DNA from: Hydractinia symbiolongicarpus
Taxonomy: Eukaryota; Cnidaria; Hydrozoa; Anthoathecata; Hydractiniidae
DNA length: 64,000 bases
NCBI RefSeq assembly: GCF_029227915.1
Contig: NC_079876.1
Location: 15,562,001-15,626,000, forward strand
Direction: 5' to 3'
The first letter of the stretch is position 1, and each line of letters opens with the position of its first letter. The translations under genes and the position numbers were made by a program. The notes under the pieces were generated by a model. The model was not told the DNA's origin. It saw only the letters and a program-made list of their open reading frames with translations, and searched no databases. Below are positions 690 to 62,791 of this stretch, in pieces.

Positions 690-796
690 CAGATATTGTT
701 TTAAAATACCATTAATATGAAGTGAATTTTTCCAAATCAATTTTACATGACTGGGTGACATGATGATCGCTTTTAATTCTCTTGGTTGTGACGGTA
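690..796 (-). CDS. Gene C next FN3 domain, first-half exon
   Basis: Starts VPSQPRELKA, carries SHVKLIW and ends KQYL, 107 nt. The matching exons in gene A (57624-57730) and gene B (14746-14852) have the same length. The donor that keeps phase 0 is CTG|GCAAGT, a GC donor also found in gene A. The second half of the domain lies left of the window. Confidence 0.7.
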
Positions 797-3700
797 CTAA
801 TATTAAAAATGCTCTTCTATAAATTAAAAATAAAAAAATAAAAATTGCTTTACTTCCTCTCATTAATTTAAATCAAATTTAAGTTCTAACATTATGGGGA
901 GGTATTATGATATTTATTTAACAGTTCTGTAAATAAACTAGTGATAACCAATTTAAAATAAATTTGTTATCTTGTTTTAAACTTCTTTTACAAAACCAAC
1001 TAGTTAATATCACTAAATCATTATCATTACAATAAAATTAAAAAGCTTATGGTTATTACAATTAAATGTTTTTACTGAAAAAAATGTAGATATAAATAGC
1101 TAAATATAAATTTTTTCATTACCTATCCTTATACTTTTTTTTCACATTCCATGCTATTACTTCTATTAAAAAATTTGTTACTTATGAAAACAAAAATCAA
1201 CTAAGAATAAAACTAAGCTAAATTAATACACAATGTCTAGTAATTTATTAAAAGAAAAAATAATTCATTCATAATTAAAAGCTAAACTGTATTTACAAAT
1301 TGATTACCTGTTGTGTCAGTTTTTACAGCAACTACAGAATTCAATAGTACTGCCATGTCTGATGCAAATGAGAAAAAAGTTTTCATCTAAAAAACAAAGC
1401 AAGGAATTAATTCTTTAATTTTAAACAACTACACCTGATAACCTACACTTGTTAATCAGTATGTGTCTTGCAGAAGCATTCAGCAACTGTATTGGTAAGT
1501 CTAATTTACACGCATACTGTGTTCCTTTAAATTAAGAATTGGATAAATAAGAAGTTTTAGCTAACTTAAAGTCACACTCTACGCAGGTAGCAGTATTGTG
1601 CATAGTGGATAATTGTGGGTGTACCAACATGTTAGATTACCTTACATTCATACATTGTAAATGGTAATAATGGATGAACTGTGGCATACGCTTTTGTGCT
1701 TGATATGTTGTCAATAAAAATAATCTTTGCACATCTTATTTGGCAACATTCAATTCTATATTTAGATATTTATTCTTTTCCATTTAAAATCCATCCAAAT
1801 GTTACAGATGTTGCATTTTGAGTAAGTACAGAAAAGTTTTTTGGTGCTAAAAACAGGAAAAAAATTATTGAAACAGTGTGTAAAGTGTGTATAACAAAAC
1901 ACAGAACATAACATAACTGGAATCAATACAAAACTCACGCCATTTTTAAATAAATTTCAAATTGCGTTTCACTGCAAAAACAGAAAACTATCTTAAGAAA
2001 GAGCAAATTTTCAAACTAAGGAGTGTAACAAAAGAGTTGAATCTGATATTTGCTAACTATTTTTAAGATGCAAAAACAACAGAAGTGTATACAAAAAATT
2101 TATGTAATAAAATGTTAGTTTACAAACATTCTAACCTTCGTAAACTTTTGACAGAACAAATGACGATATTTTAGCAGGGAGAAAATAATTTTGAAACATG
2201 TACTGATATGCACACATATATTCTTTGGTACACTTCAATTTTTTATTCACTTGATTATCACATTCACCAAATCTCAACAAAAACTTGTCAATATTACTCT
2301 TAAAAGTGAGTAATGACTTATATAATGTAGTTGGGCTTTGGTTCCAAATCTCAGTGATTGTATAATTTCCATCATTTGAAATTGTTTTGTCATTCAAACT
2401 CCATTGTATGTTTGGATGAGTGCCAAATGCTGCACATTGTAAGCTGTTGTTTACTCTGTTAATTACAACACCAGGAAGTTTATCTAACACAGGAAGATAA
2501 TCTAGTTTGTAAAATCTACCTTTGCTATAAGGTTAAGGTTAATATTTTTATACAGAGGAAGTTCAGATATTGTACTGAAAAAACGGAAAAGATAAACCCT
2601 ATTTACGAAATATGCTAATAATACGAAATTTCATAATGGATTATTAAATATACTATGTTAATTTAAACATGTTATGTGATCAGAAAATTTTATATGCTCA
2701 GCGGTAAAGTAGGTTTTTATTTTGTTACTGGCTACATGAGTTAAAAGTCCAAACTTTTGTTCTCATTGACATAAAATTTTAAGTCGTTTGGAAGAATGTC
2801 TAACAAATTCGAAACCAAATCAAATCTGCTTTGTTATAAGTAATAGTACCAGCCTGATTCCCCTTTATTTTTTAATGGTTTTTTAGGTTGTGTATATTTA
2901 TTTCAAGAAATTTAGTCCTGCACAAACCTCCATTGCTTCCCATAATCTCCAATCTTCCACCACATCCTTGATCACCATTTACTTTATTATTACAATCCAT
3001 TTCATGCAATCTAATGCAGTTTGCTTTTAACATAGTTGGAAGAGTAGCTAGTTGTGTTTTGTATCTATTGTTGCTCCCTGTGAATTCCTGAAGAATAATC
3101 AAAACTATACCAAGTGAACTCTTTAAGCCTATTTGGTATGGGGCGTTTTGATTCATGTAAGAATGGGGGCATAAACTGCCCGCGGACTGTAACTTTAGAT
3201 CTGTTTGGTTTTTATTGGCGAAAATTGGCACAAACATTATTATAATTCCTTTTTTAGTTATAGCCTACTTTATAAGGACTTTTAGGTTCACATTGGCCAA
3301 ACATGAATAGCACTTGACTTGTTGAGCTTCAACCATGTTTTATAGATTAAAAAAAAGTATAGATCTTATGGATGCAAATAATATTGGTTTAAACTTAGCC
3401 TACCATTACACAGAATAAAAACTGTTTGTGTTTTACAAAAAATAGTTAAAACTCTCTGCAACTTCTAACATTAAGCCTTTTGATATTTTATTGTGTTTTA
3501 CAAATAAAGTTATCCCATTTGCCAACATGGTCGTTATAGAAGCATAACAGTGATAAAAAAATGCACCGAATTTACAATATGCACTAAAAAAGCTAAAGGT
3601 ACTGTCCGATTAAAAAACGATAACTTTTCAATTATTTTATTAAGTATCAAAAATAATGAAGATTGCACTCTTAAACAACAAAGATATAACCATTACTTAG

Positions 3701-6700
3701 CACCATGGTTTGTTCGTTATGATCTTATTACAATCGCCTACCACCTTCATGAACTTTCCAACATGGCAAATGGACTGGGTAAATTTATTATTCAGCTTGT
3801 GACCTAGTTACCTGCATTCTTATTAGGCGAACCCCTGACTTGCAAATCGAATGACTAATTGTTTATTTATAATTTTTTTCCTTTTCTTAAAATAAGTTTC
3901 TCGTGAAATAGCAATGAGTAAAAAATAATTGGCAGGTTCTATGATTTCAAAAAAAAGCAGTGAATGATAAGCTAGTTCCGACTTTTCCAGACATAGACAA
4001 ACATAACATTGACAGAGATCTTGGGGCAACCCTACTCGCCTAAATGTTGAAGTAGCTCTATGGTGCCTGTGTGATAAATGTGATAGGATGCCTTCTGAAG
4101 TAGAATGCTTTTACTGTCACGAGATAGACTCTATTATATACTTTTAATTACATGGTATAAAATTTTCTAGCTTTGGTGGCACTCCATCACAGAGAGAGCA
4201 AATGATTGGCAAAACGTTTTGATCCTTGGGCAGGGAAAAAACTTTTAACTTGTTTTTTTTACTGTTGTTGTTAGTGCAATTCACAACAGCACACCACATT
4301 ATTCTGCCTTTCAACCCTACTGAATGTGCAATCTGAGTCTAATCTCTCTGTGGCGGGACATCTAGTAAAGAGGAAACTAATTCTTCACTTTTGACTGGTT
4401 AGCTTTATAGTAGCTGGAAACAACTATGTAAACGTAAGGCCGAAGACATATTGGACCTTAAGTTTTATTAGCGAATGTGTACAGAATTGGCACAATGTGT
4501 GTTAAACTTAAGGTCTAGACACCTCTCCCGCCTTCGATTTTTAATTCATACTAGTCGACAAAGCCCGTGGAAAAATCCACTGAGGCAGGATAAATATGAA
4601 AAATAAGCGTCATTCGAATTTTGCTGGCCCGTCTAGACCTTAGAATTAAAATTTTTTTTGGAAATTTGTATACCTGTTGCCTTCATCGTATAGATCTTGA
4701 AACGCTGAGCAAGAAAATGTATAGGATCATGTACTTTTGACAAACGGTTGCAGAGATATTAGGGTTTAAAGGTTTTTTGATGACGTCATCAACCCGTCCA
4801 TTCCGAACGAATTCGGGGACCCAGGTTTGGGAATATAACCCAAATTGGTCCTAGGTGGTCCCTAGTTTCCCACGCGGTGAAAAATCATTGACGTCACCAC
4901 CTCGTTTTCAAGTTATTTGGCCTCAAAGTTTTAGGTGCACTGTAATGGCTTCATTAATTTAATATAGAATATTGACGTTAAAGTAGTGTTATTTTCATCG
5001 CGCCGTAACGTCAGAAAATTTGACATATTAGAGATGCATTTTTCGGCAACATCAAAGGAAAATAAAGAAATCCACTTTGCCTGTCACAGACACACAGACA
5101 GACACACTTAGCGTATTATTATATAGATGAATAATTCATGAAAAACGGTCTTTCACAATACAGAGGGTAAGATTTTTAAGCATATAATACAAGTATAAAC
5201 CTAGTCCACGTTTTATCTATTTTGGAGAGTTCGGCACGCTACGGGTAAATACGCCACACGCTACATATTATTTTAGCCTTAGGTTAGTGCCTATCATCCA
5301 CCATCCATATAAACAATCGAAACGAGAGATCACATGCTCTTTTTGTAAACAAGAATGAGATGTTGTTCAGTTGGTTTTAGGTAAGAAAACAAATAACTAT
5401 TTACTTATTTTATAGAAATTAGTTACAAATATGAATTTTTTGTCACAATGGTAGTTGATTTTTAATCAAACAGTACCTTTAATTAGCAAGAAGAGTAGTT
5501 TCCTGTGCATTTTAACTTCCAGAGATAAATTTCATGTGCAGTAAAAATTGATTCAAAATAAGAGCACATATGAGGTCAATCACATAAGGAATTTTATTTC
5601 AGAATGGTAGGCTAACTTAATTAAGTAATTTTAAGGGTACACAACATTTTAAACCACATATACAAAATGCTATGCTAGAAATATAAGTAACACACATATA
5701 AAAGTATAAAAAGATTAGATTTACCCTCTTAACATTACGGTAATTTACAATCTCTTCTTGCCAAAGATCAACTAAATCATTTGAACTTGTTATACCATAT
5801 TTGATGTTTACATATGGCACATCCTCTGTATCACCTTGTATTGCAAGACCAGTAATTGTCATAATTCTTCCCAAATCAATCTGAATGGATGCATTTCTAC
5901 TGCACCAATTGAAAGGACTGTTCAATCGAACAGAAGAAATATTTATATTTGTAAAAGGAGCAAATGATTTTAACCTGTTATCAGGTATTACGTTATTTTC
6001 CATCCCAAGCGGCTGCAAACATGGTGCTAAAATTAACAAAATAATCTTAAGGTATTTTCATAATTTAGCAGAATTTGTATTGCAAAGGATACAAACCTCC
6101 TTTCAATGTTTTCTGGATAACTGACGCACTCCAAGTTCCATTCGATGTAGCTTTTACCTGAAAGATGATACTTTAACTAGTATTCTTTTTATTGCTCTAA
6201 TTATAAACATACGTGCTTTCAAAGGTTTTCACGTTCCAAATAACTCGAATTGCACAATATGTTGTATTAAAAATGCAATAAATAAAGGTAAAAACACCAT
6301 ATGGAAATTTAATAATTACATGTGCAACACTATCAAACCTTGCAAGAGTAGGTACTGTATACAGCAAGTCCATGCACAGTTCCTCCATTTACATTCCCAG
6401 AAAAGTCTGCAACTATAATTTCTCTGCCATTTCTTCTAGAGCATTCTATGTAATACTTGAGATTGTTAACTCCAGGGTAAGATGGAGATTTCCATGCAAA
6501 TGTAAGGCTTGTTTGACTCTGATTTTCGTTTTTGAAATTTATAGGTGCATCCAACGCTAAACAAAATAGAACTAGAAATGTGTACATTACAAAAATCATA
6601 CTAAAAACTAGGGAAAAAAACATGTCCATGGTTGACTCTAAATATTGAAAGTAAAGTACGAAAACCTACCTGCCACTGATATGAGAGCATATGTAGCAAA

Positions 6701-6724
6701 GAAAAATAAAGGTATATACACCAT
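690..6724 (-). CDS. Gene C: paralogous receptor, 5' part, possibly degenerating
   Basis: Exons: signal peptide 6670-6724; FN3 6339-6556 and 6097-6157; F5/8C first half 5725-6026; F5/8C last exon 2928-3087; Ig 2136-2483; FN3 1641-1846 (with a stop) and 1308-1386; FN3 first half 690-796. The rest lies left of the window. Phases agree throughout. Compared with gene B, the exons for the end of the first F5/8C, the whole second and the start of the third are missing, so two half domains meet in frame. TAA at 1770-1772 interrupts one FN3 exon. That exon and its partner form a phase 1-1 pair, so skipping both keeps the frame. C may be a pseudogene or an isoform-restricted gene. Confidence 0.7.
1308..1386 (-). 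CDS. Gene C FN3 C-terminal exon
   Basis: 79 nt, phase 0 to 1, with a good acceptor (T-rich tract then TAG) and donor CAG|GTAATC. It encodes MKTFFSFASDMAVLLNSV and ends AVKTDTTG. It takes the place of the exons 34496-34562 and 20553-20628 of gene B, which close the equivalent FN3. Divergent, so called mainly from position, phase and splice sites. Confidence 0.55.
1641..1846 (-). pseudogene. Gene C FN3 exon with in-frame stop
   Basis: 206 nt, exactly the length of the FN3 exons 35818-36023 and 21490-21695 of gene B, with intact acceptor and donor and the right phases. It reads APKNFSVLTQNATSVTFGW, then a TAA (1770-1772) where gene B has a tyrosine codon, then ISKYRIECC and MYECK. Everything else is in frame, so the lesion looks recent. 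Confidence 0.7.
2136..2483 (-). CDS. Gene C Ig-like domain
   Basis: A single 348-nt phase 1-1 exon. Ig hallmarks: NSLQCAAFGTHPNIQWS (first cysteine and tryptophan) and CTKEYMCAYQY (second cysteine). An extra cysteine pair (FGEC and LKC) is shared by all copies of this Ig type in the window. Confidence 0.8.
2928..3087 (-). CDS. Gene C F5/8C domain, C-terminal exon
   Basis: Begins in phase 0 with EFTGSNNRYKTQ and ends GGRLEIMGSNG in phase 1. It is the counterpart of the last exon of the third F5/8C domain in genes A and B. Relative to those it lacks 15 nt (five residues, KNGIV region), and the final domain cysteine is serine (MGSNG instead of MGCNG), which may weaken the closing disulfide. The intron beside it matches the gene B intron closely for ~150 bp. 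Confidence 0.75.
3127..3234 (+). mobile_element. Truncated copy of the TIR element at 41280
   Basis: About 108 bp match the first part of the element at 41280-41885, from GCCTATTTGGTAT onward, in the equivalent intron and at the same site. Similarity stops near 3234, a candidate deletion junction. Confidence 0.6.
4025..4146 (+). pseudogene. P2X7 C-terminal-like domain fragment
   Basis: The frame encodes VEVALWCLCDKCDRMPSE and then VECFYCHEID, ending in a stop. The W-C-x-C-x2-C-x2-M-P and E-C-x2-C-x-E pattern matches the cysteine-rich domain known from the P2X7 tail and from many free-standing invertebrate proteins. No rest of the domain is readable, so it is a relic. Confidence 0.45.
4551..5128 (+). 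repeat. Interspersed repeat family, copy 1 (~580 bp)
   Basis: Starts CTAGTCGACAAAGCCCGTGG with a small hairpin (GTGGA/TCCAC), and ends with ACAG-type short repeats, then an AT-rich TATTATTATATAGAT. Related copies lie at 33782-33930 and 51423-51994 in the opposite orientation. No coding capacity. Confidence 0.65.
5725..6026 (-). CDS. Gene C F5/8C domain, N-terminal exon
   Basis: It encodes the first two thirds of a discoidin/F5-8 type C domain: CLQPLGMENNVIPD start, then QIDLGRIMTITGLAIQG, the core strand. It ends in phase 0 after NVKR. In gene B this exon is followed by one starting NFAYP; no such exon is visible here before the domain-end exon at 2928-3087. Confidence 0.8.
6097..6556 (-). 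CDS. Gene C FN3-1 (2 exons)
   Basis: Exons 6339-6556 and 6097-6157. The first starts ALDAPINF, carries the LTFAW core and ends YSCK in phase 0. The second supplies the last FN3 strand (GTWSASVIQKTLKG) and ends in phase 1. The same split occurs in gene B at 45567-45784 and 45329-45389. Confidence 0.8.
6670..6724 (-). CDS. Gene C exon 1: signal peptide
   Basis: Start codon at 6724. It encodes MVYIPLFFFATYALISVA, a hydrophobic secretion signal, and ends in phase 1 at a GTAGGT donor. It is nearly the same as the gene B first exon, including ~40 bp of upstream sequence. This supports the start and marks a gene boundary between genes B and C. Confidence 0.8.
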
Positions 6725-7232
6725 CACAGCTTCTTTCTCTCATAATCTAAGTCATACTTTTCTGCAATTTTTAAAAAGAATATTACATTTTTATACGAAA
6801 AATAAAGACACAAAGTCTAAAGCACATTATAACAGTATCACACTGCTATTTGATAAAAATTGTAGATTCCTATAACTCATACTCAGCTTAGTTTGAATTG
6901 TTCTAAATTCATAAAATTTGGAATAACAACTAAAACAAATATTTTTTTTCTTGTAATAAATCTTGCAATATTGAAGAGTAAAACATATATAAAATCACAA
7001 ACAAACAGTAAAACAAAATTTAATATTTTCAGGATCATAATGATAACCCTTAACAATAAAAACTCTCTCTATAAATTCTCAATAAAAATTTACAACTACT
7101 GAATATGGTATTTGTTAAAATTATATTTTATTTAAAAAAGTAAAAAACAGGACTCATGATACAAAAATAGTACAAACTGTACATTATTTAATAAAAATTT
7201 GTGAGTTATAAAATCATGACTACAAATTGTTG
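6725..7232 (-). promoter_or_regulatory. Gene B/gene C spacer with conserved promoter-like block
   Basis: 508 bp from the gene B stop to the gene C start. The ~40 bp before the start and a TATAAAAA at 6788-6795 (64-71 nt upstream of the ATG) recur at the gene A/B junction at the same distance. Near the gene B stop, TTTATT at about 7127-7132 reads as a minus-strand AATAAA. Promoter function is inferred from conservation and position only. Confidence 0.5.
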
Positions 7233-7573
7233 TTAACTGTTTACATAATATTCTGACTTTTTATTCTTGTTTGATGTCAATTGAGAGTAAGCTACCTCTT
7301 CTTCAGTAGGTACTAAACCAGTGTAATGTGTCTGTAACTCTATTGATTCTTTCACATCTTCATATGTTTCATCAGTAACAGGATTTTGAACCACAGATGC
7401 ATTGGTAACATAAGGAAGATCAGTGTAAACAGGTTCAGGAAGCGATTTGTCTGCAGACTTCGTTTCCTGCAGTCTTTTGAATTTCACAATACATACAACA
7501 ATAATTATTAATAAAATAATGGTGACACTGATAACAGCTATGATGGTATAGGATTGGCTATTCCTTTTTTCCA
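7233..7573 (-). CDS. Gene B TM helix and ITAM/ITIM cytoplasmic tail
   Basis: Last exon. About 23 hydrophobic residues (within YTIIAVISVTIILLIII and on), then a basic stop-transfer KFKRLQ. The tail has seven tyrosines: PVYTDL, LPYVTN, ETYEDV, THYTGL, VAYSQL and EYY. VAYSQL fits the ITIM rule (V-x-Y-x-x-L). YTGL and YSQL are eight residues apart, which fits ITAM spacing. Expected partners are SH2 proteins such as Src/Syk-type kinases or SHP-type phosphatases (inference). Confidence 0.88.
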
Positions 7574-10500
7574 CTAAAATAGAGATTTAGTTGTTAAATA
7601 GTGCAAAAATTAGGATTTGGAAAAACAAGGTACACTTATATTTCAACAGGTAATTTTTACAAACGCTTTATTTTCTTAATCTGCATATTGTTGTTATAAA
7701 CAACATAATCAATGTAAAAATATAAGAACACCAATTAATCCTAAATTGCAGTAGTGGTTACACTCGACTACTACCCCCCAAAAAACACCGGAGCAGTGAT
7801 GTTATACTATTGTATAAGAACCTAGTGACAATATGTTAATGATAGCAGAGAAGAAACCAGAGGTATATTATATGTATATGTATGTCAGAACATAATGCAT
7901 AGCTTAAAAATATGTGAAAGTAATACACCCTCTTTACCTTTTCTGACACAAGTAAAACCATTTCCTTGATAATCTTTAGAACAAGAACAGGCATATGAAA
8001 GCCAATCAGGTAGATTCATACATACAGCATTATCATCACAGTATTTAGTAGCTGAAGGTTCACACTCATTAAAATCTACAAGAGTTATAAGGCATTAAAA
8101 GTGAAAAACCTATATTGTTCTTCTTTAATAAATACAATTCTGGTTATTTACCAGAACATGATCTTTTGTAAAGGTTGTAAAGTAGAAAAACTATTGCTTT
8201 TATATTTAATAACTAAAAAATGAATTACCATGCACAAGTAGGGATGATTTCACAATATCCGCTTGAAAAACTGAGTTTTTTAGAAAAAGGTGATACTGAT
8301 TCTTCTTGACAACTCCATGAAGAGCTTTTAAAACCTCTTTTACGTCAAGTGGAACAGAGCTTCTCAGAGTAATGACACACTGAATGGATTGTCCTGTTCT
8401 AAAATGCATAGGCAAAAGGTCGTTATTAACAAGCAAAATTTTAATAATGGACGGATGCGTGAACGCACAATATGCTTAAAAATATTTCAGCATTACATAA
8501 ATATTGTCTAAAAGCATAAAATATGTAAGTACAAATCTTACACAGAATTGTTCATTTGAATTAAATCACTTCCCACTGCCATGACGTTCAAAAACAAAAG
8601 TTTTACCTAAGAGAAATATTGTTACTTGTACAAAGCTTATTTTAAAAAACCAAAAACAAAAAAACATTCTGGAAAAGCATTCTGCAGTATCACCGAAGAC
8701 AGTAATGGAATGCTATGAAAAATTTCAGTTTAAGTTTTATGAAATAAAACTTTGCTTGCAAAACTACCAACCAAGTTTAAAAATATTTAGCATCTTAATA
8801 CATCTAAAACTAAGAGCAGGTCACTATATAGAAATATACAAACCCTGTCATAGGCGGCTTCAAGAAAACTTGATTTTAATTGCTTTAGATGTTCTTTTTC
8901 CAGGACTTTACCATTAAAGTACACATTGATATAGTCAAAGCGAATCACAATATTACGTTGAGCTAAAGGTAAAGAACGTGAAATTAAACATTTGCAAACA
9001 ATTTGTTAAAACAACTAGCCATGAACCTGTGAAAAACCAAACATTTCTATTATGTGTATGCTTGAAATTTACTTGAATAGGGGTTATTACTTTGATCATG
9101 GATGTGACATCATAGTGTTTTTGATCTCCAGGCTCCCAATTGTTTTAAATTAACTTGCAGGCAAACAAGAGTATTATAAAATAAATACATTGAGTCTGTG
9201 TCTTTAGAAAGTTTTTTTCCGTAATTTTCTTTAACAATGTTAATAATTTCCAATCTGGAAACACCATCTACTATAATTTGTCTAATACAAAGTAAATTGC
9301 TTTTTATTATTTGTTTTTACAACTCTGTTTGTGGCTTAAAAATTTAGAACCTCATAATTCCGTTTCATAAGAAACGTTCTTTTTTCCAAAAGAATTACCT
9401 AAAAATACATGCCAATTATGGTAAATGGTCATTTGAACATTTTCATCAATAAAATGGATTGATATCATTACATTGTACCTGCAACTCCATAATGCATATG
9501 GAATCTGTATAAATATGTACAAACAAGCTAAAATCAGAACATTGGTCATTTTTCCCTGGACAGGGCACACATTTCAATTCTGCACACGTGGGGTAATGAC
9601 ATCAATAAAACCTTGAAGCTTAAAACCAATATATTATAAGATGTTAAGCTTTAGACAATGGAGGAAATAGTAAAACATGTTTTCTGCAAACTAATTAATG
9701 ACAACGTGAAACTATGCTCATTGGTTGCCCTATAAAAAATGTCCTCTTCCACGGAGCTTACATCTCGTAACCAAATAGTTAAATTTTCACTTACTAGATA
9801 TGTTATAAGTTCGTGGTATATCTAAACAAAAGCATTCGATGGAAAAATATTGTTATAACGTTTTTAAAAATTAATTCATGGGAAAAAAAGTAAACTATTA
9901 GTACCTGTTACAATAACTTTAATGTTCTCAATATATTTACGGGAATTTGAATGTATTGTCTCTAAAACTGTGCATGTGTACAAACCAGTGTCTTCATTTT
10001 TTGCATTCTTTATTTCTATGTTATAGCTGTCATGCTTTAACAGTGTTACAATACTGTCCCCAAATTTTTTGCTTGGAGAAAAAACCTTGTTTGTTCCAAA
10101 TGCTATGAGCACACCATCCTTTGTACAACTGATTGTGTCTATGTTACCAGTTCTGTATATATTCCAAGTCAAAACAGCTACCATACCAGCACGTAACAAC
10201 ATCAAATTTCTATCTGCTTTAACTAAAGAGAAAAAAAAATTGGGTTTACTTAAATAAAACCATCTTTGGCTCGTGTCCTTACACAAAAATATATTTACAC
10301 ATTTTTTCAAAATATTCCCATCCCCAACATAAAATATTATTAAGTGCACTAAGAACAAGATTTTTAAATGTAAATCCACACAAACATGGTTGTTATTAAA
10401 ACAAAAATCATCTGAAAATGTAAATATAATAACACTAAAGTCTAAAACCATACTGATTCGAAGTGATGTCTTGTCATGGAACCAAGGAGTTGAATAGTAA

Positions 10501-45957: not shown

Positions 45958-46498
45958 AGCTTCTTTTTCTCATAATCTAAGTCATACTTCTCTACAATTT
46001 ACCAAAAAGATATTATAACATTTTTATACAAAAATAAAGATGCAGAGTTTAAGGCAAAATATATTAGTATCACAACTACTATTTGCTAAATTGATATTTC
46101 CAATACCTTAAACAAAACTTTGTTAATAGATCCAGAAACAATTCAACAAAACTTGAAATACATAGACCTAATTTAAATTCACAACTAAAACAAATAATTT
46201 TTTAAGGACAACCCTTTTAAAAATCGCAATATTAAAGAATAAAAATCACAAGCAATGAAACATAACATTTTAAAACTCAATTCATTTAAAACAACAAACG
46301 TAATATTTTCAGGATCATATAATCATAACCATTAACAATTAAAACTCTATAAACTCTAAATAAAAATAAGGTATTCCTATGTAAAAAATAATATATTATT
46401 TAAAAAAGTGAAAAACAGGATTTAGAATAAAAAATTAGTACAAACTGTACATTATCTAATAAAGATTTTTAAATTATAAAATCATGAATAAATTTCTT
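45958..46498 (-). promoter_or_regulatory. Gene A/gene B spacer with conserved promoter-like block
   Basis: 541 bp between the gene A stop and the gene B start, similar over its ends to the gene B/C spacer. TATAAAAA at 46021-46028 is 64-71 nt upstream of the gene B ATG at 45957. The 3' flank of gene A resembles that of gene B for ~100 bp. Confidence 0.5.
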
Positions 46499-46839
46499 TT
46501 AACTGTTTTCATAATATTCTGACTTTTTATTCTTGTTTGATGTCAATTGAGAGTAAGTTACATCTTCTTCAGTAGGTACTAAACCAGTGTAATGTGTCTT
46601 TAACTCTATTGATTCTTTCACATCTTCATATACTTCATCAGTAACAGGGTTGTGAATCACAGATGCATTGGTAACATAGGGAAGATCAGTGTAAACAGGT
46701 TCAGGAAGTGATTTTTCTGTAGACTTCGTTTTCTGCAGTCTTTTGAATTGCACAATGCATGCAAAAATTATTATCAATAAAATAATGGTCACAATACTGC
46801 CAGTGATGATGATGTATTGTTTGCTGCTTTTTTCCTTTT
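46499..46839 (-). CDS. Gene A TM helix and ITAM/ITIM tail
   Basis: Same 341 nt as gene B. Hydrophobic core IVTIILLIIIFACIVQF, basic FKRLQ, tail with PVYTDL, LPYVTN, EVYEDV, THYTGL, VTYSQL and EYYENS. ITIM and ITAM spacing are unchanged, as is nearly every tail residue, despite larger changes outside the membrane. Confidence 0.88.
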
Positions 46840-49800: not shown

Positions 49801-52800
49801 ATATTTAAATCTTAAAACACAAAATATTCTTTCTTATAAGTAAGAATGTTCCAAAATATTAAATTCATACCGACTTGAGGCAATGTGATAAAGTAACTCC
49901 AAGGAGATGAAAAGAAGATGGTCTAAATAATATTTAGTAGTATTCTATGTGAATAATATTATGGGTAAAAAAATGATATACATGTATTTAGATTGTTTGT
50001 ATAACAAACTCTTACCTCGTTATAAAGAGATTTCAGATAGATAGAATAAGTGGTCCCAGGTTTTAATTTGACATTAAAAAATTTAATATCATGAACAGAA
50101 GATACATATGTTTTTTCATTGCCAACAACAAAGTTTCTCAGCTCGTTAAACATAGCTGCAGAAAATTCAGATGTGATGTATGGATGACTAGGCTTTACAG
50201 AATCAAAATAAGGTGTAAGATTAGTTGGTTCAGGATAACTAGAGTTGATAGAGTCTTCTGCTACTATTATTTGATAGTACCTGAAAATAGAAACTATTAG
50301 TTTACAAAGTTTGTAGTTCGTCAAACTTCCCTTAGGATCATTTTCTTCATGACAATTTACCTTATGTAGCTTGGCCCAGCGGATAATTTTAATAAAACAG
50401 TGTTTGAGGTAACCATTGTAGCCTTACCAATTGCCCTTAAATCATTTCGTGCTAAAAGACAAATAAACAAATATATATAGCAGCAGGTAATGTACTGTAG
50501 TAAACATCACAGCACATGAAAGGCACTCTCCCAATAACAAAGTACGATTATTCACAAAGGAAAATAAAAACATCAAACATCTTTAAAATATATGTACTGT
50601 GTACTAAGCTAACTAAAGACAGGGTGTCTGCAATTGTAAAATGAAAAACAATAGCACTGGTTAACAAAATAAGCACAAACCTAGTAAAACACCCTTATTG
50701 ATACTATACAGCAACACGCCCTAAAATAATAAACAAATTAGTGTACGGAAATTACTTTATATATACATAATTTAAGCCACATCTTTTGTAGTACCTTCTG
50801 CAGTAAGTTGTTATTATTGTATTGGTCTCTATAATAATAGCTGTATTACAAATTGACTGTGACAGCTTTATTCCAGACATCTCCAATACAAGTGTAAATC
50901 ACCATACCATACTGACAAGCAATTTAGTGGATGTTTCATTATAAAAGTTTTCGAGGCAATCCCCAAAGATTCTGTTCTGTTCAGGACAGGGTTATCTACA
51001 CTTGTGTTTGCATAAATCTGTTTTTTAATAATAAGCACCACTGTGCAAAAATTCATCTTATTTAATTGGTCTCTTATAAATTCCAAGCTTTATAAGGGAT
51101 AAATAACGGGGAATGTTTGTGGAAAATAATACAAAAACTTCCTTAGTCAAGCCTTGAAAGAAGAAACTTGCATGGCAAAATGTGTTTTAGGTTGACATTA
51201 AAGTTGAGAACGATATGTACTTACCAAAATTTTAAAGAAGAAGTCCTTGAGTAACCAGTACTTATTTAGTATAGAGGAAAATTAGTTTATACTTGTAATG
51301 GCTAAAAAAATATTATTTCTTTAACTTCTTACCATTCATACACAAGTTAACCAATTAAAATTTGCAACATATGTTTTACATCTCTTATAATAATATGATT
51401 AGTCAATTTCAACATGTATGCATTTTTTGTGACGTTGCTGAAAAAGTGTTATGTCTCAAATGTTAATATTTCTGACGTTACGGCACGACATTAATAACAC
51501 TAATGTAACGTCAATATCTTAATTTAAATAAATGAAGCCATTAAAATGCACTCAAAACCTTAGGTTTAAATAACTTGGAAATGAGGCAAGGGCGTCAGTC
51601 AATTTTCACCGTGATAAGTTGACGGCATTAACAAACCTTTGTCAAAAGTACATAATCCTATACATTTTCTTGATCAGCATTTTAAGATCTATACCATGAA
51701 GGCAAGTGATACACAAAATTCTGATTTTTTTCCCGTATTTTAGCAGGTCCTTGCTGATGTCACCAGAACTGCAACCCTTATATCTCCTTAATCATTCGTC
51801 AAAAACCCACATGATTCTGTACATTATTTTGATCAGAGCTCTACACAATAGAGGCAACAGGTAAAAAAATTTTGGAAATTTTTTGGTGTATTGTGCTGCT
51901 CCTTGTGCTGCAAATGTTATCAATATTTAAGCAATGGTTCTCTTTTCCATTGTTCTCCTCCCTAGGTGGATTTTTACACAAGCCTTATCTAGTAAATATA
52001 TAAATATAACCGACTGCTTACTGTTTCATTTAAAACTGCCCTCCAGCAAAACAGATATGTTTCTGTGAGGGAGAACTTTATAATAGTACCAGCAATAGTA
52101 ACATCTTCAACACCTTTGTGTATGTCGACATTTAGAGGCACATGGGTGAACGCTGTTGCAATCAATAATGTGGTATTGTCTGGTATATATGAACAATGTA
52201 TCTTCCTGTCTTTTTTAATGGTTAGTTGATAAAAGCTAAAAATGCAAAAATATAATGTTAACTTAAAATGATTAACAGATGCCCTACTTTCGTATGAATA
52301 TTTTAAAATAACCTAACATTTTCTATAGGTTGGTATAAGTCTTTCCCATAAAAAATAGAAGGAAATTTGGCCCCCTTCTTTACGTTTAAGGTAACATTTG
52401 AATTTTTTTTCTTAAATTTTTGATACACGAAAGTTATTTGTCTTTGTAAATGGAACTTAAAAGTCCTACTACATAAAAAATGAACATAGAGGAAATGAGC
52501 TTTACATAATTACTCATACTGATTTCGAAAGTGTTATAAATGTCTTATGTTTTAAGTTAACAAGTAAACGTTATAGGTAAATAAAAAAACATAGATGCAA
52601 TTTTAAAATAAAAATTTCATCAAAAAACTTTGTTTTCTGATAAATAACGATAAAATTTAGTTTTTTAAAAAAAGTGTTCTTTTCTAAAAAACTCTACTTT
52701 TTACTTTCATCGACTCCATTGGAGTGGTAATTTTTCAAAAATTTAGTTAAATTTAATAGTTATAACTCTGTTAATGTTGTTCCAAATGAACTTGACTTTG

Positions 52801-55800
52801 GGTCATTTAATGTAGAATTTAACAAAAATTTCAGAAAATATTATGCAATGCACTGTTAAATTTTTAACTGTGTCAAAGTTACAGGAAGTACGGGTAGGAG
52901 AACATATATACTTTTAAGACTAAGTCTAAATATTGCAAGCAAGTTACAAGATAACTAAAGAATTAGATTTAAACACCGTTATTATAGAGTTAATACCTCA
53001 CGTTAAAAATTTCTATGTGTTATAAAAAATGTTAAATAACACAAAGGGTAAAACTATTTTATGATATACTTTAACCATGCCTACCGAATTGGTCCAGTTT
53101 CATCTGACACTGAATGCAATGTTAAAACAGTTTTTTGCATCCCAAGCTTTTTTACAGTTATGGGTGGTCCATGTGGCTCTAAAGTATGACAAATATAAAA
53201 TAAACAAAGTAGTTCTACAAATACATGTAAGCAAGTTTCTCAAACTAAACTTATGGTCTGACTAACATGTTTTTAACATCTTTTACACAGAAAATAAACT
53301 CAAAAACGTACTGTCATATGGAGTAACTACAGTTGTTATATTGGAAGCAGGTCCTACAAAAGCATTGTTTTCTGTTTTGACATTAAAGAAGTATGTTGTT
53401 CCAGGATAAAGATTTTGTACATCAAAGTGTGATAGTTGGCAGCGATAGTTTTTTGCTGTAAAAAGGATGAGTTGTATGTCTTTAATCCCTTCAAGGTAAC
53501 CTACCAAAGCAACAAAAAATCAACTTTCAACATACTCAAAAAAAAATTCTATAAAAAACCTTTCTCCAGCAAATAGTTATATTAGCTGGAAATACATAAG
53601 CCAATATGTTTTTATAACTTTCTTAATCAGAAGCCACTTAGTCAGATTAAAGCAATGAGGAAAACTAGCAGAATAGTTTAACTAATGGAAATTGAAAAGT
53701 ACCTTCAACTTTGTTTAGTGAACAAAATCATATGTCTTAGCCTGTAAAGTAAACAAGGCCAAACCTTCTCATTTCCATACAGAATAAAAAATACTTATAC
53801 ATAAATGAATGGTTCCAGAATCATCTGTTCAAAATATGTAAATAAAAATTAAAATACTAGCTGAGTATATTGTTATACAAAAAATTTATCATGTTTCTAA
53901 CTTATCCAAAGTAAAAACATGAAATAATACTTGCCAGATAATGTTTTAAAATACCATTGATATGAAGTGATTGTTTCCAAACCAATTTTACATGAGAGGG
54001 TGACATAACGATTGCTTTAAGTTCTCTTGGTTGTGATGGTGCTGTAAAATGAAAAAAGCATTTCTTTAAATAAAAACAAAAAATTTCCTGCTGTACTTCC
54101 TCTAATCAACTTTAAGTTGCAACATTATAGGGAGGTAACCTGATATTCTTAAGCATTTTGATAAACAAACCAATGTTTACCCATTTAAGGTGGTAGCAAT
54201 CTTGTCAAAGCTGTCCAAACAGCTGCATTACTCTTTTAGTGTATATGTATCCAAATTTCTTAAATACTTCTTTAAAATATGGACCTTACGAATTAAGAAA
54301 ATGATTTTGACTTAATATCAAAATTGCTTAATCAGCAGGATTTTTTAGTTAAAAATGCATAAAAAATTGGCTTTTACAAGCTTCAACCTTTTACTACATC
54401 ATGATTTTTAATTAGCTTTTTTTTTAAATGGATTTAGGGTTAACCATGTTGGGTGTGCAGAGTTTTTTTATCATTTATATTTTGTAAACGAAAGGCTTTT
54501 GCATCTTTTGAAAGATGCATAAAACAATGTTGAAAGAAGAAATATCCAGAGTAAAAATTTCAAAGAAAAATAAAAAGGATCGAAAGTTAAAGTTCACACA
54601 GTGCAGAACTTAAATATGTAAACATTGGAATTGGATAAACAAAGTAGCCTAAAAAAAAAGGTGGAGCAAAATGTTTCCCAACCTGCAATTATTAAGATTT
54701 GGCAAATATGGTTTTAGCATCTATTAAGGAAAAAAAATAAAAACGTACTGTCATATGGAGTAACTGCAGTTGTGACATTGGAAGCAGGTCCTACAAGGGC
54801 ATAGTTTTCGGTTTTGACTTCGAAGAAGTACGTCGTTCCTGGATAAAGATTTTGTACATCAACTTTGGTATATTTCACAACAATAGTTTTTTGATGTAAA
54901 AAAGACAAGTTGTATGGTTTAAATCCATTCAAGGTAACCTACAAAAATATCAAAACATTAACCTCAAAAATACTATATTTTAGGGATGCATTAGCAACCT
55001 CAACCCCAGGGGCTTTTGCCTTTTTGACATCAAGGCCAGCAGCGAAAAAAACCTGGTACATGCTGGTGAGTTTTGTATTGTTTACATTCAACATAGATAA
55101 TTATTTGCATGTCATGATATATGCAACGATTTACTATAAAGATGGTGGATTTTGATACAAAAACATGGAAAGATAAGAGGATTCTTGAGTATAAGAAATG
55201 TTCAAAAAGATTGACTAAAAAAAGGTGATCCAAACAGTAAAGATTTTTATGAAAAACGTTATTTTTGCAGATTTGCATTATTGATATTTTGAATAAAAAA
55301 AGGTTCTTTTTAAGCTTTGTAAAAAACATGACTTTCGGCTATTTTAGCTGGATAACAAAAACATGTAGCTAACTAAATTACTTTCTTGATAACATTTACA
55401 ATAGCAGACGTAATAAGCCATTACTAAAAAAAATTAAGTTTATTTTTATTCATTTTTCTACTTAAAAAAGCAAGTGTTCTTCCAAACACATAGTTTTAGT
55501 CAAACCAGCCAAATGCATCTCCCAATTTGAAACAACAAGTTTAAAATTTTGTTGCTCTGTCAAGTAAGTTTTATAAGCAAAGCTACTACCTCTGCTTATA
55601 ATAATTTTTTAGCCAACATTTATAACAGTCCTGGTCATATGAATTTTATCAGCTGAGTGGTACTTCACTCGCCTCGATTGTTGTAGGTGTGTGATAAATT
55701 TCATGTGTCTTACCTTAATTGAGGAGAGCGATTATTCAGTTTTCATAATTTGAGGTGTGTGATAACACGTATGAAAAGTGTGGTCGTCTGGTAGGCCTAC

Positions 55801-58800
55801 TGAGTAATTGAATGTATTTGCATCTTTATTAAAGGACCGTCTCAAAATTTCTGTACGTAATTCGTATAATCCGTATCAAAACTTTGTATAAATGAATCAG
55901 CCCTTAAAATTAGCGTGCGGACGTAATTTCCAACGTAAAATACGAAGATTGCAAAAAAATTGCCGACGTAATTTTGTTGTGAAATTTGAATGAATGCCAC
56001 TATTAAAACCAGTCTGTGTTATTATGAAGAACGTAAAGTATAGAAAACATTTAAGTCAGCCCCTTTCCTTAATGCTGACACTCTTATGCTCCGTTGGTGC
56101 ATTACACTCAGACTCAAACGAAAGACGGAAGACCATTTGGAATCATGCCACAAGTCAGTCAGACCTTCATCTTCACAGAGAATACTGCGAGAAGAGAGCG
56201 CACCCATGCAAGTTAAATATAAGCAGAACATGGGAGAGGTTAGGTGTCCTGTACCTTAATACAGCTTTTGGACAAATGTTCTTGTGATGTAATACCAAAG
56301 AAAAAACATGTTGAATAAAGTTTAAAAAATCTTTTTAAAAGGGGAAAGTGAAATCAAATATATTTAGTAATAATAATCGAAAAAATTGTATATTGTATTA
56401 AAAAGAAGTCAAGAAGTTCTGTCTCCCACACGACACAGCAGGCAATAAGTCAGCCCTGCCCTCGGTTTTGTGAGAAGAGATGTTCTGCGAAGACTCTAAC
56501 AATTGAATCTGCTGTACAGTTTTGCTTCCTGTTAAGCTGTGCCAGTGACAAGCATTTTCGAAGCATGCCACTGGCGACTTCTGCGATATATAACCTAATG
56601 ATGCCCTAACCTAATGAATTCATCTTGAAACATAAAAAGGCAGCAAAAGAATAACAGGTGTTATTACACAATGCAAGTATTCAATTTATAAAAATATTTC
56701 ATTTTTAAATGCAAATGTTTTTTCATTCAAATTCCGAACTTTAAGTCATTTTTTTCTTTGATTATTAGTATAGTAAATAATTACTTTATACAAAAGACAT
56801 TTCAGGTGCGCATTATTGAAGTGACTAAAGTGCTTTCGGTGCATGATTAAAAAATGCTGCTCCATTGTTGCAGGAGCAGGCTGAGACCAGGACTGCATAA
56901 GACATTGAAAGCATATTATATATTTACCTAGCCAACTATCTAAGCAAGTTTTGGTTTTATTTCCTTATTGAATATATAACTAGCTAGATGTCACAATCTA
57001 AGGCTTACACAAAAAGGTCCTAAACTTGCAAAGCTACCAAGCTAAATTGAGCTAGGTTATTATATGTATCAGTATATCCCAACAAAATCAGCCACAAGTT
57101 ACCACACTTTGTTGATACATAATGCTTCTTAAAAACTTTCATAACTAGAAATTATAGTTTCAGGTAAACAAATAATAATTTGGTTGAAAAGAAAACTTTC
57201 CAAGTCAAAAACCTCAACAACCAAAATACATCATCCTTGCGCCTCAAGTTGTTTTTTACTTGCTGCAAAAACTGTAACAGCAAGGCAAATCTTTAATTAT
57301 TCATAAAAACCAATATACCAGGGTCTTGTTAGCCATCAAGTAAGCGCTAGTGGCTTTGACATATGCAACAAATCCTGAGGACAAAGATGGATGCATCCAC
57401 AAACAGCGGTCAAAGGTATCAGGCAGAATCCATTATCAAGAGCTACAGAAAATATCTCCAACTTTATTTAATAAACAATATCATTTATTAGGTTGCAATT
57501 TACACAACATTATTTATTTATCAAAATAAAGAGACAGTTATCATGATATTTATAAAAAAAGGATTTATAGGATTTTTTTTTTTGGAAAAGTTATCCAAAG
57601 TAAAAACATGAAATAATACTTGCCAGATAATGTTTTAAAATACCATTGATATGAAGTGGTTGTTTCCAAATCAATTTTACATGACTGGGTGACATAACAA
57701 TTGCTTTCAGTTCTCTTGGTTGTGACGGTGCTGTAACATAAAAAAAGCATTTTTTTTTAAATTAAAAGCAAGAAACTTAACTTAATCAATTTAATCATGT
57801 TAAAACATTATAGGGAGGCACAATAATATTTTTCTACCAGTTTTGTAAACAAACCATTGTTAACCAATTTAAAACAAACATTTAATTCATTATCAAAAGC
57901 AAAGCTGCATTGACATACGTGTGAGTACATATTACAACTAAGCTAAGTGTGTATTAAAACACACAGAACAACAACAGGAATTGAAGTAAAACTCATGTCA
58001 TGTTTAAATATTGTTTAAGTTTCATTGCAAAAACACAAAACTGCTTTAAGAAATAGCAAATTTTTAAACTAAAGAGTGAAACAAAAGAGTTGAATCTGAT
58101 ATTTGCTAAAAATAGAAACTTTGTAAAGTACAAGCAGTCATTTAAAATTGTATACAAAAGATTTATGTAATAAAAAGTTTGTTTAAAAACATTCTAACCT
58201 TCGTAAATCTTAGAGAGAACAAATGAGGATTTTTTAGCAGGGATAAAATAATGTTGAAACATGTACTGATATGCACACATGTATTTTTTAGTACACTTCA
58301 ATGTTCCATTCCCTTGATTATCACATTTACCAAATCTCAACAAAAAAATGTCAATATTACTCCTGAAGGTGAGTAATGATTTATATAATGTAGTTGCGTT
58401 TTGATTCCCAATCTCAGTGATTGTACAATTTTCATCATTTGTAATTACTTTGTCATTCAAACTCCATTGTATTTTCGGATGTGTACCAAATGCTGCACAT
58501 TGTAAACTGTTGTTTAATCTGCTAATCACAACACCAGGAAGTTTATCTAAAACATAAATACTAGCCTGTAAAATCCACTTTTGCTACAAGGTTAAGATTA
58601 TTTTTATACAGAGGAAGTTCAGATATTGTACTGAAAAAAGGAAAAGAGTTGCATACTTTAATTAACTGTTGGCTTTAAAACCAATAATGATAGACCCTAT
58701 TTACGTAAATATGGTAATAATGCAAAATTTCTCAACAGATTATTAATTATACTATGTTAATTTAAACATGGATGCATGTTGTGTGATTAAATTTCTTACT

Positions 58801-60073
58801 GCATGAAGATGTGAATGAATGTTAAGAAGGTAGGGTTAAAAATTAGTCCTGTACAAACCTCCATTACATCCCATAATTTCTAATCTTCCACCACATCCCT
58901 GATCCTCCACAATACCATTTTTTTTAACTTTATTATTACAATTCATTTCATGCAATCTAATGCAGTTTGCTTTTAACATAGTTGGAAGAATAGCTACTTG
59001 TGTTTTGTATCTGTTGCTGCTCCCTGTGAATACCTGGAGAAACATTAAAACTACACCAAGTAAACTCTTTAAAGCAAATATACACTTGTGCAAAAAATAA
59101 CTTTAAGCACTTTTAAAATATATTATAAAATCAGAATACTTTACTTACATGTTTAACATTATTTATTTTGTAACCATATATGACAGAATCATGTTTATAT
59201 CCATATTTTAATTTGAAGGTTTCAATTCTATCATTCCATGCATAACCAATACCTTGCAGAGCAATTCCAAAAATGTATTTTGTTTCATTAAAGCACACTT
59301 GAAGCCAAATGTTTGAATCACCTGCAAAAAATATTCGACTACATGAAATGTTAAAAACAAAAATTTTAAAATTAACAAAAATGTTTTCGGCTATGCCAGC
59401 TATTATTTTTTACAAACAATAAGTAAGAAGTAATGCAATAACATTTTGTCTGTTAAAATACATTTGAAACGCAAAACTGTTGTTCACCAAGATCTGGAAA
59501 CTGACCATAGAAATATAAAATCAACAACAAAATGTACAAAGAAAGTATGTTAAAAAAACAACACAGAAAGGCTTACGAATATGAAGTGACTTTAAAAGTA
59601 CAAGAAGTAATTAGGTTTTTTAACATACCAAATTTTCTTGCCCAGGCATTTTTAAGACTATGCAATCGAGCTTTATCCGGCAAATTATTATTTGAATAGG
59701 AACTAGAAGCAGATAAAGTTATTCCTGGTTTTCTCCTTTCAAGTCCAAGTTTATTCATGCAACCTAAACACAATAGGAACTAAAGTTCTGTTCAAATTGA
59801 TCATCACTACTTTTTGTAATAACTGGATAGTTGGTGAGGAGGCTTTATATATTAACAAAACTATGTGAAACTTTACATATCCACAACCCATACAATTACC
59901 AAAAATGCATAATTATATTTAATCAGAAACAACTAACTTGTTAAACAACCAGTAAAACCAATTTTCATACATCCTCCACCTTGTTGAGGGATGATATCAA
60001 TAATACTGCATATTAATAGAATGTCAAACCAATGTGTTATTATGGAATTATTTGCTCTGTTCGTAATAAATGT
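46499..60073 (-). CDS. Gene A: paralogous receptor, 3' part (5' end beyond window)
   Basis: Twenty-one exons are visible: end of an F5/8C, one full F5/8C, Ig, two FN3, two membrane-proximal FN3-like domains, Ig, SEA-like, EGF, TM and tail. Exons: 59938-60073, 59629-59763, 59149-59321, 58859-59033, 58199-58546, 57624-57730, 54749-54938, 53931-54041, 53312-53500, 53085-53178, 52022-52235, 50681-50720, 50361-50451, 50016-50280, 49871-49922, 49383-49700, 49081-49199, 48928-48992, 47849-48018, 47525-47662, 46499-46839. Order, lengths and phases copy the 3' half of gene B. The sum (3,471 nt) is in frame only if the second FN3 uses a GT donor 4 nt beyond the GC donor used by the first. Upstream intron sequence matches gene B, so more F5/8C exons should lie to the right, beyond the LTR retrotransposon. 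One GC donor follows the EGF exon. Confidence 0.8.
47525..47662 (-). CDS. Gene A EGF domain, GC donor
   Basis: DFNECESSAIKYCDDNAVC start and YACACSKDYQGNGFSC. 138 nt if the donor is AAG|GCATGG, which matches the gene B exon length (donor AAG|GTAAAG there). If that GC site is not used, the transcript would read through into the intron. Confidence 0.78.
47849..49199 (-). CDS. Gene A SEA-like region (exons 49081-49199, 48928-48992, 47849-48018)
   Basis: AQCNVRIKCNYRNVYFNS, VKILFYELSASGSNI and TENSIEFVITLQHN. Same exon lengths (119, 65, 170 nt) as gene B. The intron between the last two exons is ~910 bp against ~140 bp in gene B, because of SINE-like insertions. Confidence 0.58.
48270..48345 (+). 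repeat. tRNA-like SINE head 1
   Basis: A-box-like TTAGCGAAGTGGT at 48281-48293 and B-box-like GATCGAAAC at 48325-48333, ~35 nt apart, as in a tRNA-derived Pol III promoter. It lies in the enlarged gene A intron 48019-48927. It cannot fold to a proper tRNA and so is not a tRNA gene. Confidence 0.55.
48790..48880 (-). repeat. tRNA-like SINE head 2 (opposite strand)
   Basis: On the minus strand: A-box-like GAGCTAAGGTGTCTGAC, then B-box-like TTTGAACCCC (plus-strand complement at 48797-48808). Length between boxes resembles Leu/Ser tRNAs with a long variable arm. Sits in the same intron as head 1, facing it. Confidence 0.5.
49383..49700 (-). CDS. Gene A membrane-side Ig
   Basis: 318-nt phase 1-1 exon with DTISCLKNNSVVALGTNK and LEDSGTYNCKVLAK (D-x-G-x-Y-x-C). 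Aligns with 9905-10222 of gene B without length change. Confidence 0.82.
49871..50451 (-). CDS. Gene A membrane-proximal FN3-like domain 2 (exons 50361-50451, 50016-50280, 49871-49922)
   Basis: ARNDLRAIGKATMV, YYQIIVAEDS, PYITSEFSAAMF and KLKPGTTYSIYLKSLYNE, then the short exon TIFFSSPWSYFITLPQV. Equivalent to 12100-12193, 11582-11864 and 10454-10505 in gene B. Confidence 0.72.
50681..53178 (-). CDS. Gene A membrane-proximal FN3-like domain 1 (exons 53085-53178, 52022-52235, 50681-50720)
   Basis: PHGPPITVKKLGMQKTVL, SFYQLTIKKDRKIHC, LFCWRAVLNET, and the 40-nt exon GVLLYSINKGVLL. Same exon plan as 13767-13860, 13237-13435 and 12454-12496 in gene B. A repeat copy sits ~25 bp beyond the donor of the middle exon. 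Confidence 0.68.
51423..51994 (-). repeat. Interspersed repeat family, copy 3 (inverted)
   Basis: Matches copy 1 over nearly its whole length in reverse, including TTTCTGACGTTACGGC and the GTGGATTTTTACACAAGCC end, but lacks the ACAG tract. It ends ~25 bp from the donor of the exon 52022-52235 of gene A. Confidence 0.65.
53312..54041 (-). CDS. Gene A FN3-b (exons 53931-54041, 53312-53500)
   Basis: A duplicate of FN3-a: SQPRELKAIVMSPSHVKLVW and DVQNLYPGTTYFFNV. The second exon has 189 nt, one fewer than FN3-a, by a 1-nt deletion before DVQNLYPG. The frame is open if the GT of GCAAGT serves as donor (exon edge 53931). With the GC donor (edge 53935) it is shifted. Confidence 0.7.
54749..57730 (-). 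CDS. Gene A FN3-a (exons 57624-57730, 54749-54938)
   Basis: APSQPRELKAIVMSPSHVKL start, KHYL end; second exon VTLNGFKPYNLSF and DVQNLYPGTTYFF. The frame requires the donor CTG|GCAAGT (a GC donor). Using the GT four bases on would give an immediate stop in the second exon. Confidence 0.78.
54939..57623. other. Gene A 2.7-kb intron inside FN3-a
   Basis: Much longer than the matching gene B intron (14671-14745, 75 bp). The segment ~55600-56640 is less AT-rich than its surroundings and looks inserted, but its frames match nothing I recognise. Confidence 0.5.
58199..58546 (-). CDS. Gene A Ig domain
   Basis: 348-nt phase 1-1 exon with NSLQCAAFGTHPKIQWS and CTKKYMCAYQY. It ends KKSSFVLSKIYEG like the gene C Ig, unlike Ig-1 and Ig-2 of gene B. 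Confidence 0.82.
58859..59763 (-). CDS. Gene A F5/8C-3 (exons 59629-59763, 59149-59321, 58859-59033)
   Basis: CMNKLGLERRKPGITLSAS start, CFNETKYIFGIALQGIGY core, closing exon VFTGSSNRYKTQ to GGRLEIMGCNG. Nearest to F5/8C-6 of gene B. Confidence 0.82.
59938..60073 (-). CDS. Gene A F5/8C-2, closing exon (domain partial)
   Basis: TFITNRANNSIITHWFDI start and GGCMKIGFTGCLT end. Same 136 nt and phases as 42811-42946 and 28487-28622. The first exon of the domain is not seen to the right within the window. Confidence 0.78.
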
Positions 60074-62460: not shown

Positions 62461-62489
62461 AAAAATAAGAGAAGATGAAATGCAATCTC

Positions 62490-62780: not shown

Positions 62781-62791
62781 ATTCGGTTACA

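Follow-up and report, generated by a model that had tools for sequence, protein, structure and literature searches.

The gene array and the structure of gene B

The stretch analysed here, referred to as the window, comprises 64,000 nucleotides of the Hydractinia symbiolongicarpus genome (contig NC_079876.1, positions 15,562,001 to 15,626,000). Its minus strand carries a tandem array of receptor genes, in which one complete gene, gene B, is flanked by two partial paralogues, gene A above and gene C below. A spacer of 541 bp lies between the stop of A (46499) and the start of B (45957), and one of 508 bp between the stop of B (7233) and the start of C (6724), in keeping with the original prediction of three minus-strand paralogues spaced by about 0.5 kb.

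Gene B consists of 49 exons and encodes 2,895 amino acids. The model is based on its splice chain, on agreement with P0001, an independent NCBI gene model described below, and on control scores. The uninterrupted frame predicted earlier was recovered, and the count was corrected from 48 exons and 8,655 nt to 49 exons and 8,688 nt, a length that counts the stop codon. The coding length was 8,667 nt before three acceptors were shifted by 6, 6 and 9 nt to agree with P0001; the new acceptors were confirmed as AG. All 48 introns are GT-AG, and their phases, counted before these shifts, are 1 (n = 28), 0 (n = 17) and 2 (n = 3). The chain came from a small splice-aware gene finder written for this analysis, trained on conserved minus-strand open reading frames (ORFs) and refined by hand. 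Its score was 537.5 for the minus strand against 8.6 for the plus strand, and all 10 dinucleotide shuffles scored 0.0; this control is biased toward the minus strand because the parameters were trained on that strand of the window.

The encoded protein has the order [FN3-F5/8C x3-Ig] x3, three FN3, two phosphatase-type FN3 stalk domains, Ig, an undefined region, EGF, a transmembrane stretch and a cytoplasmic tail. Pfam, run on gene B as two halves of the model before the acceptor shifts, detected four domain types over cut-off (F5/8C 9e-47, fn3 2e-31, I-set 3e-05, EGF_3 4e-07). The F5/8C domains are arranged in three repeated cassettes, a correction to the earlier plan. The proposed SEA domain was not recovered: the region between the last Ig and EGF, called SEA-like below, gave no Pfam match up to E 0.1, and its single-sequence fold was useless (pLDDT 35). 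Rfam returned no match at the gathering threshold. The parts of gene B are as follows.

7233..45957, minus: gene B, 49 exons
45900..45957, minus: exon 1, putative signal-peptide-like start (MMVYISFFIFATYTVISVT), read from the sequence; the start of gene C is similar
36186..45784, minus: cassette 1 (Pfam, home-made profiles)
45567-45784, 45329-45389, minus: cassette 1 FN3
44963-45258, 44205-44352, minus: cassette 1 F5/8C-a
43480-43736, 42811-42946, minus: cassette 1 F5/8C-b
42453-42608, 41966-42138, 41066-41240, minus: cassette 1 F5/8C-c
36186-36533, minus: cassette 1 Ig
21853..36023, minus: cassette 2 (Pfam, home-made profiles)
35818-36023, 34496-34562, minus: cassette 2 FN3
34114-34418, 30488-30629, minus: cassette 2 F5/8C-a
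29974-30230, 28487-28622, minus: cassette 2 F5/8C-b
28175-28309, 27681-27853, 27400-27574, minus: cassette 2 F5/8C-c
21853-22197, minus: cassette 2 Ig
16222..21701, minus: cassette 3 (Pfam, home-made profiles)
21490-21701, 20553-20628, minus: cassette 3 FN3
19877-20178, 19656-19794, minus: cassette 3 F5/8C-a
19362-19582, 18505-18637, minus: cassette 3 F5/8C-b
18279-18431, 17581-17750, 17283-17427, minus: cassette 3 F5/8C-c
16222-16590, minus: cassette 3 Ig-like (no Pfam match for the exon alone)
14481..15904, minus: three FN3 (Pfam fn3), at 15641-15904; 15318-15538 + 15119-15194; 14746-14852 + 14481-14670
10454..13860, minus: stalk of two phosphatase-type FN3, at 13767-13860, 13237-13435, 12454-12496; 12100-12193, 11582-11864, 10454-10505
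9905..10222, minus: membrane-proximal Ig, start of the module that occupies the place of the phosphatase
8229..8962, minus: region between Ig and EGF (8844-8962, 8542-8606, 8229-8398), with a counterpart in gene A
7938..8075, minus: EGF (PF12947, 4e-07)
7233..7573, minus: hydrophobic transmembrane stretch followed by the tyrosine tail (YTDL, YEDV, YTGL-x8-YSQL, YVN)

Among solved structures, the closest sequence relatives of the three-FN3 block are FN3 domains of LAR-type phosphatases, and the best match of the stalk is PTPRM FN3-4. The membrane-proximal Ig scores under cut-off for V-set and I-set in gene B and over cut-off for both in the gene A copy. A 27-nt micro-exon between this Ig and the SEA-like region is common to B (9795-9821) and A (49286-49312). 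Within a gene B intron, 33003-33384 holds 125-amino-acid ORFs overlapping on both strands; the plus-strand one resembles by eye the end of a non-LTR (long terminal repeat) reverse transcriptase and has no Pfam match.

Pfam finds no Y_phosphatase in gene B, which ends at the stop at 7233 after an 83-amino-acid tail. Four YxxPhi motifs of the tail are kept in both A and B, two of them with the spacing of an immunoreceptor tyrosine-based activation motif (ITAM). The ITAM-spaced pair YTGL-x8-YSQL is found in A, B and P0001, and the pattern YxxL-x(6-8)-YxxL arises in 0.8% of 10,000 tail shuffles. Candidate alr genes bearing ITAM or immunoreceptor tyrosine-based inhibition motifs (ITIMs), together with associated signalling proteins, are reported for Hydractinia in a review (PMC12065747).

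A predicted phosphatase sister and its medusozoan family

A whole-protein search with gene B against about 5.8 billion proteins yielded 5,253 candidates, among which only two are close relatives, both from H. symbiolongicarpus and both modelled on a 39,956,072-base contig. P0001 (LOC130629668), an uncharacterised predicted protein, is 94% identical to gene B over 91%, and P0002 (LOC130629666), also predicted, is 89% identical over 86%. The other two matches are distant and confined to FN3 (P0003, 27% over 9%; P0004, 31% over 7%). No further family members of about 810-2,576 amino acids turned up in 5,349 candidates at an E limit of 1e-6; the three matches there, one to an echinoderm sortilin-related receptor and two to insect Dscam2, lie in FN3. 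Both searches work from no more than 100 short words and can miss distant relatives. In the open-access literature, no paper names LOC130629665 to LOC130629670, and among the papers listed no title or abstract opening names this family, "F5/8" not being searchable as a term. A 2019 article by Zarate-Potes in Gene may list such genes.

In exons 21-49 the alignment of P0001 with gene B is gap-free, and about 13 of 1,707 residues differ (split codons counted twice). This agreement with an independently built model supports the splice model of gene B, and P0001 is most likely the same gene, as judged from the alignment.

P0002 has three cassettes, FN3 domains and stalk as in gene B, followed by two protein tyrosine phosphatase (PTP) domains (Y_phosphatase 1e-147, in two stretches). 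The first PTP domain carries WPD and HCSAGVGRTG, and the second carries WPN. HCSAGVGRTG and WPD are catalytic motifs, while WPN is typical of inactive second domains. Gene B tracks the plan of P0002 through the final stalk exon (10454-10505, phase-1 intron); beyond that exon the two are wholly different. In cassette 1, gene B and P0002 are 96% identical in FN3, 90% in F5/8C-a, 100% in F5/8C-b and 98% in F5/8C-c. The earlier statement that no described family has this domain order was therefore half right: in P0002 a three-cassette ectodomain of this order is joined to two PTP domains, and phosphatases of Hydra and Clytia have one such cassette.

To follow this architecture further, domain profiles built from genes A and B were run on 17 of 126 collected proteins and on genes A, B and C; A and B match these profiles by construction, and the stray cross-hits geneA_1 under F58a, geneC_1 under F58b, and P0013_2 were omitted from the identity comparison. 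The order FN3-F58a-F58b-F58c-Ig-FN3s-stalk1-stalk2 was found with three cassettes in P0002, with three cassettes in P0001, the first cut at its start, and with a single cassette in Hydra P0013 and Clytia P0010 (the first FN3 of Clytia scores with the FN3m profile). Gene B thus has the ectodomain order of medusozoan F5/8C receptor tyrosine phosphatases and lacks their cytoplasmic PTP domains. LAR-type receptor phosphatases have N-terminal Ig domains with FN3 domains next, an order that differs from that of gene B, which begins with FN3 and F5/8C.

Searching with the phosphatase region of P0002 returned 4,275 proteins. The best 120 of these include F5/8C-bearing phosphatases from Clytia, Hydra, Rhopilema, Nematostella and Montipora. 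In a PTP tree of 24 of the 126 proteins, in which the rows of camel, Mercenaria and sponge form long branches, 10 F5/8C rows (six from named Medusozoa, plus four further rows) fall on one side of a branch with SH-aLRT 99. The anthozoan F5/8C phosphatases are not firmly grouped with the medusozoan ones (the label needs two changes). A receptor phosphatase of Mercenaria mercenaria, P0008, is listed with Pfam models for an F5/8C-like domain (PF22633) and sushi (PF00084) and has no match to the home-made profiles; its ectodomain may be an independent combination. In P0019 (eukprot), a relative phosphatase, ten tandem FN3m-profile matches follow the F5/8C domains, which points to module expansion elsewhere in the phosphatase family too.

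Partial neighbours, patchwork and selection

The neighbouring copies are incomplete in the window.

46499..60073, minus: gene A, 5' end beyond the window
690..6724, minus: gene C, 3' end beyond the window
6670-6724, minus: gene C signal exon
6339-6556 + 6097-6157, minus: gene C FN3
5725-6026 joined in frame to 2928-3087, minus: gene C hybrid F5/8C, first half of one F5/8C and last exon of another
2136-2483, minus: gene C Ig
1635-1769, 1773-1922, minus: adjacent ORFs of a stop-interrupted FN3 exon of gene C
690-796, minus: first exon of a gene C FN3, at the window end

Gene A contains the second half of an F5/8C-b, then F5/8C-c, Ig, FN3, two stalk domains, Ig, the SEA-like region, EGF, a transmembrane stretch and a tail. 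Its frame stays open, for 1,065 amino acids, only when a damaged pair of FN3 exons (about 53312-54041) is left out and splicing at two GC-AG introns is allowed. Genes A and C may be working genes or decaying copies. A GC splice donor (CTG|GCAAGT) is conserved on the first exon of FN3 in A (57624-57730 and 53935-54041) and C (690-796), and the gene B counterpart (14746-14852) has a GT donor and the same length of 107 nt. In gene C, where F5/8C exons are missing, 4153-4314 on the minus strand scores weakly for a THAP domain (0.0025, under cut-off), perhaps a transposon remnant linked to the exon loss. A 161-nt inverted repeat pair, 76% complementary, lies in gene C (4875-5035) and gene A (51451-51611) and is perhaps a small mobile element. 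On the plus strand, LTR-retrotransposon-like ORFs at 61918-63972 (integrase core rve 1e-05, under the Pfam cut-off) run past the window edge and may lie inside a gene A intron or close to one.

The copies differ in patches. In cassette 1, the F5/8C-b domains of gene B and P0002 are 100% identical; the one in P0001 is 66% identical to that of gene B and 96% identical to the partial copy in gene A. Between gene B and P0001, 219 of 291 aligned residues are identical in exons 6-10, and identity is about 99% in exons 21-49. In the alignment, their first Ig exons diverge over about the initial third and are near-identical after it. Synonymous change between A and cassette 2 of B affects 10 of 94 sites in F5/8C-c and 32 of 67 in Ig (Fisher 2e-7); between A and B it affects 22 of 98 sites in tail and EGF and 104 of 153 in Ig, stalk2 and SEA-like region (Fisher 1e-12), all site counts being rounded. 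The A/B comparison indicates a young tail and EGF beside an old Ig, stalk2 and SEA-like region. Such a mosaic is best explained by gene conversion or unequal exchange, judging from these sequence patterns, and it may alternatively come from haplotype switching in the assembly or a faulty first cassette of P0001.

The ratio of nonsynonymous to synonymous change (dN/dS) could be calculated for 48 exon pairs out of 54 and stayed under 1 in every one of them (range 0.12-0.70); in the other six dS was saturated and the ratio undefined. The pairs come from 13 exon sets, are not independent and cover a subset of exons. Positive selection was considered and none was seen, since the highest of the 48 defined values is 0.70; whole-exon averages would mask single positively selected sites. 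The genes are constrained by purifying selection.

A probable tail replacement and proposed paired signalling

Together, our results suggest that gene B and its array sisters probably descend, with a swapped tail, from a medusozoan F5/8C receptor tyrosine phosphatase; they would have kept its outer part and taken an Ig-EGF-membrane-tyrosine-tail module in place of the PTP domains. The phosphatase form is presumably the older one because it is present in Hydra, Clytia and Rhopilema. A common ectodomain joined to opposed cytoplasmic parts is suggestive of a paired system, where kinases would write on the tail and the sister phosphatase would erase. Gene B and this sister would likely read one contact signal with opposing effects.

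We then propose a model for how such a pair might have arisen and might work. The cassette would have been tripled in Hydractinia or its recent ancestry, and one copy would then have exchanged its phosphatase for the Ig-EGF-transmembrane-tail module. Upon contact with a shared ligand, the tail would be phosphorylated by a Src-type kinase and would recruit SH2 proteins (Syk-type or SHP-type). The phosphatase sister, bound to the same ligand, would strip the phosphate, and the ratio of the two receptors would set the contact threshold. Gene conversion would keep both ectodomains matched. It is tempting to go further and speculate, with considerable doubt, that a receptor phosphatase acts here as the brake of a paired-receptor system whose shared giant F5/8C-Ig ectodomain, matched by conversion and variable between haplotypes, would provide a second contact recognition beside Alr.

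Several points weigh against the tail-swap and paired-signalling reading. Gene B and P0002 diverge most in the stalk, where the last two full shared blocks have 81 of 100 and 58 of 94 identical residues, and their first Ig is only 71% identical, so that a shared ligand is not certain. A strict ITAM, which requires an acidic residue at the third position before the first tyrosine, has no match in the tail. The match of the tail to the ITIM pattern [SIVL]xYxx[LIV] (VAYSQL or VTYSQL) also occurs in 32% of shuffles and is weak evidence. P0001 and P0002 are predicted models, and P0001 (isoform X2) begins within an F5/8C domain; its first cassette may be mis-modelled. The phosphatase gene lies outside this window. 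Genes A and C are both damaged, and no counterparts of them appeared in protein searches covering about 810-5,054 amino acids. The GC content of the window is 30.5%; that of the H. symbiolongicarpus genome is given as 35.85% in PMC10411563.

Two other functions would be compatible with a tail-swap origin. One possible function is ordinary adhesion or guidance, in which a LAR/PTPRM-like phosphatase and its tail-type sister serve epithelial or nerve-net contact without identity recognition. This deserves serious consideration, though we think it falls short of an even chance: purifying selection, the resemblance of the FN3 domains and stalk to LAR and PTPRM, and the single-cassette relatives in solitary Hydra speak for it, but adhesion alone does not explain the cassette triplication and the patchy differences. 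The other, a second self/non-self system separate from Alr, is unlikely; its polymorphic F5/8C-Ig cassettes would read identity, and two tail types would report match or mismatch. It would account for the tandem array, the signs of interlocus exchange and the patchy differences between gene B and the reference model P0001 (exons 6-10 against exons 21-49), and ITAM/ITIM motifs are also described on Hydractinia alr candidates (PMC12065747). However, none of the 48 defined dN/dS values exceeds 1, and the known Alr complex is assigned to chromosome 3 in PMC13119343 and PMC11876637. The order of LOC numbers, those of the array being far below Alr1 (LOC130635943), was considered as a chromosome argument and not relied on. 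An allorecognition role of the array is a possibility and not a finding from these sequences.

Slightly less probable still are pattern-recognition receptors whose F5/8C domains would bind microbial glycans and whose tail would activate cells. Several F5/8C domains are present, and PMC11999971 describes microbe recognition by an ITAM-bearing IgSF receptor of an oyster, but the F5/8C relatives among the 60 listed of 158 matched solved sequences belong to neuropilins, coagulation factors, a venom cofactor and CASPR2, with no lectins. We regard an artefact, either a chimeric splice model or a mis-assembled haplotype, as very improbable: the damaged or incomplete state of A and C would suit it, but the control scores of the gene finder, the exon-by-exon agreement with the NCBI model and purifying selection argue against it.

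If tail replacement from a phosphatase took place as we favour, it would illustrate a route to one-step inversion of signalling polarity, with the phosphatase ectodomain retained and a phosphorylatable tail standing where the catalytic part was. If the ligand is shared, the pair would offer simple, genetically tractable opposed receptors outside vertebrates, in an allorecognition model animal. It also makes testable whether receptor phosphatases tune ITAM-type signalling in cnidarians.

Among known systems, Hydractinia Alr1 and Alr2 resemble the array in clustered receptor genes, Ig domains and ITAM/ITIM motifs, as described in PMC11067881, PMC11876637 and PMC12065747. Alr proteins are IgSF members with V-set and I-set domains according to PMC11999971, whereas gene B opens with FN3-F5/8C and has Ig further in, a comparison of domain descriptions. 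Nearest to gene B is LOC130629668, which matches it except in the first cassette, where that model begins inside an F5/8C domain. LOC130629666 has the gene B-like three-cassette ectodomain, FN3 domains and stalk, but ends in two PTP domains instead of the Ig-EGF-transmembrane-tyrosine tail. The Hydra vulgaris and Clytia phosphatases annotated as RPTP delta or S-like (P0013, P0010) share the gene B order of FN3, F5/8C a-b-c, Ig, FN3s, stalk1 and stalk2, and differ in having one cassette and a PTP cytoplasmic part. The vertebrate paired receptors KIR, PIR and SIRP have near-identical ectodomains with opposed tails and are homogenised by gene conversion. Gene B and P0002 likewise combine near-identical ectodomains, weakest in the first Ig and the stalk, with different cytoplasmic parts. 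In KIR, PIR and SIRP the inhibitory partner recruits a phosphatase, whereas the Hydractinia partner would itself be the phosphatase.

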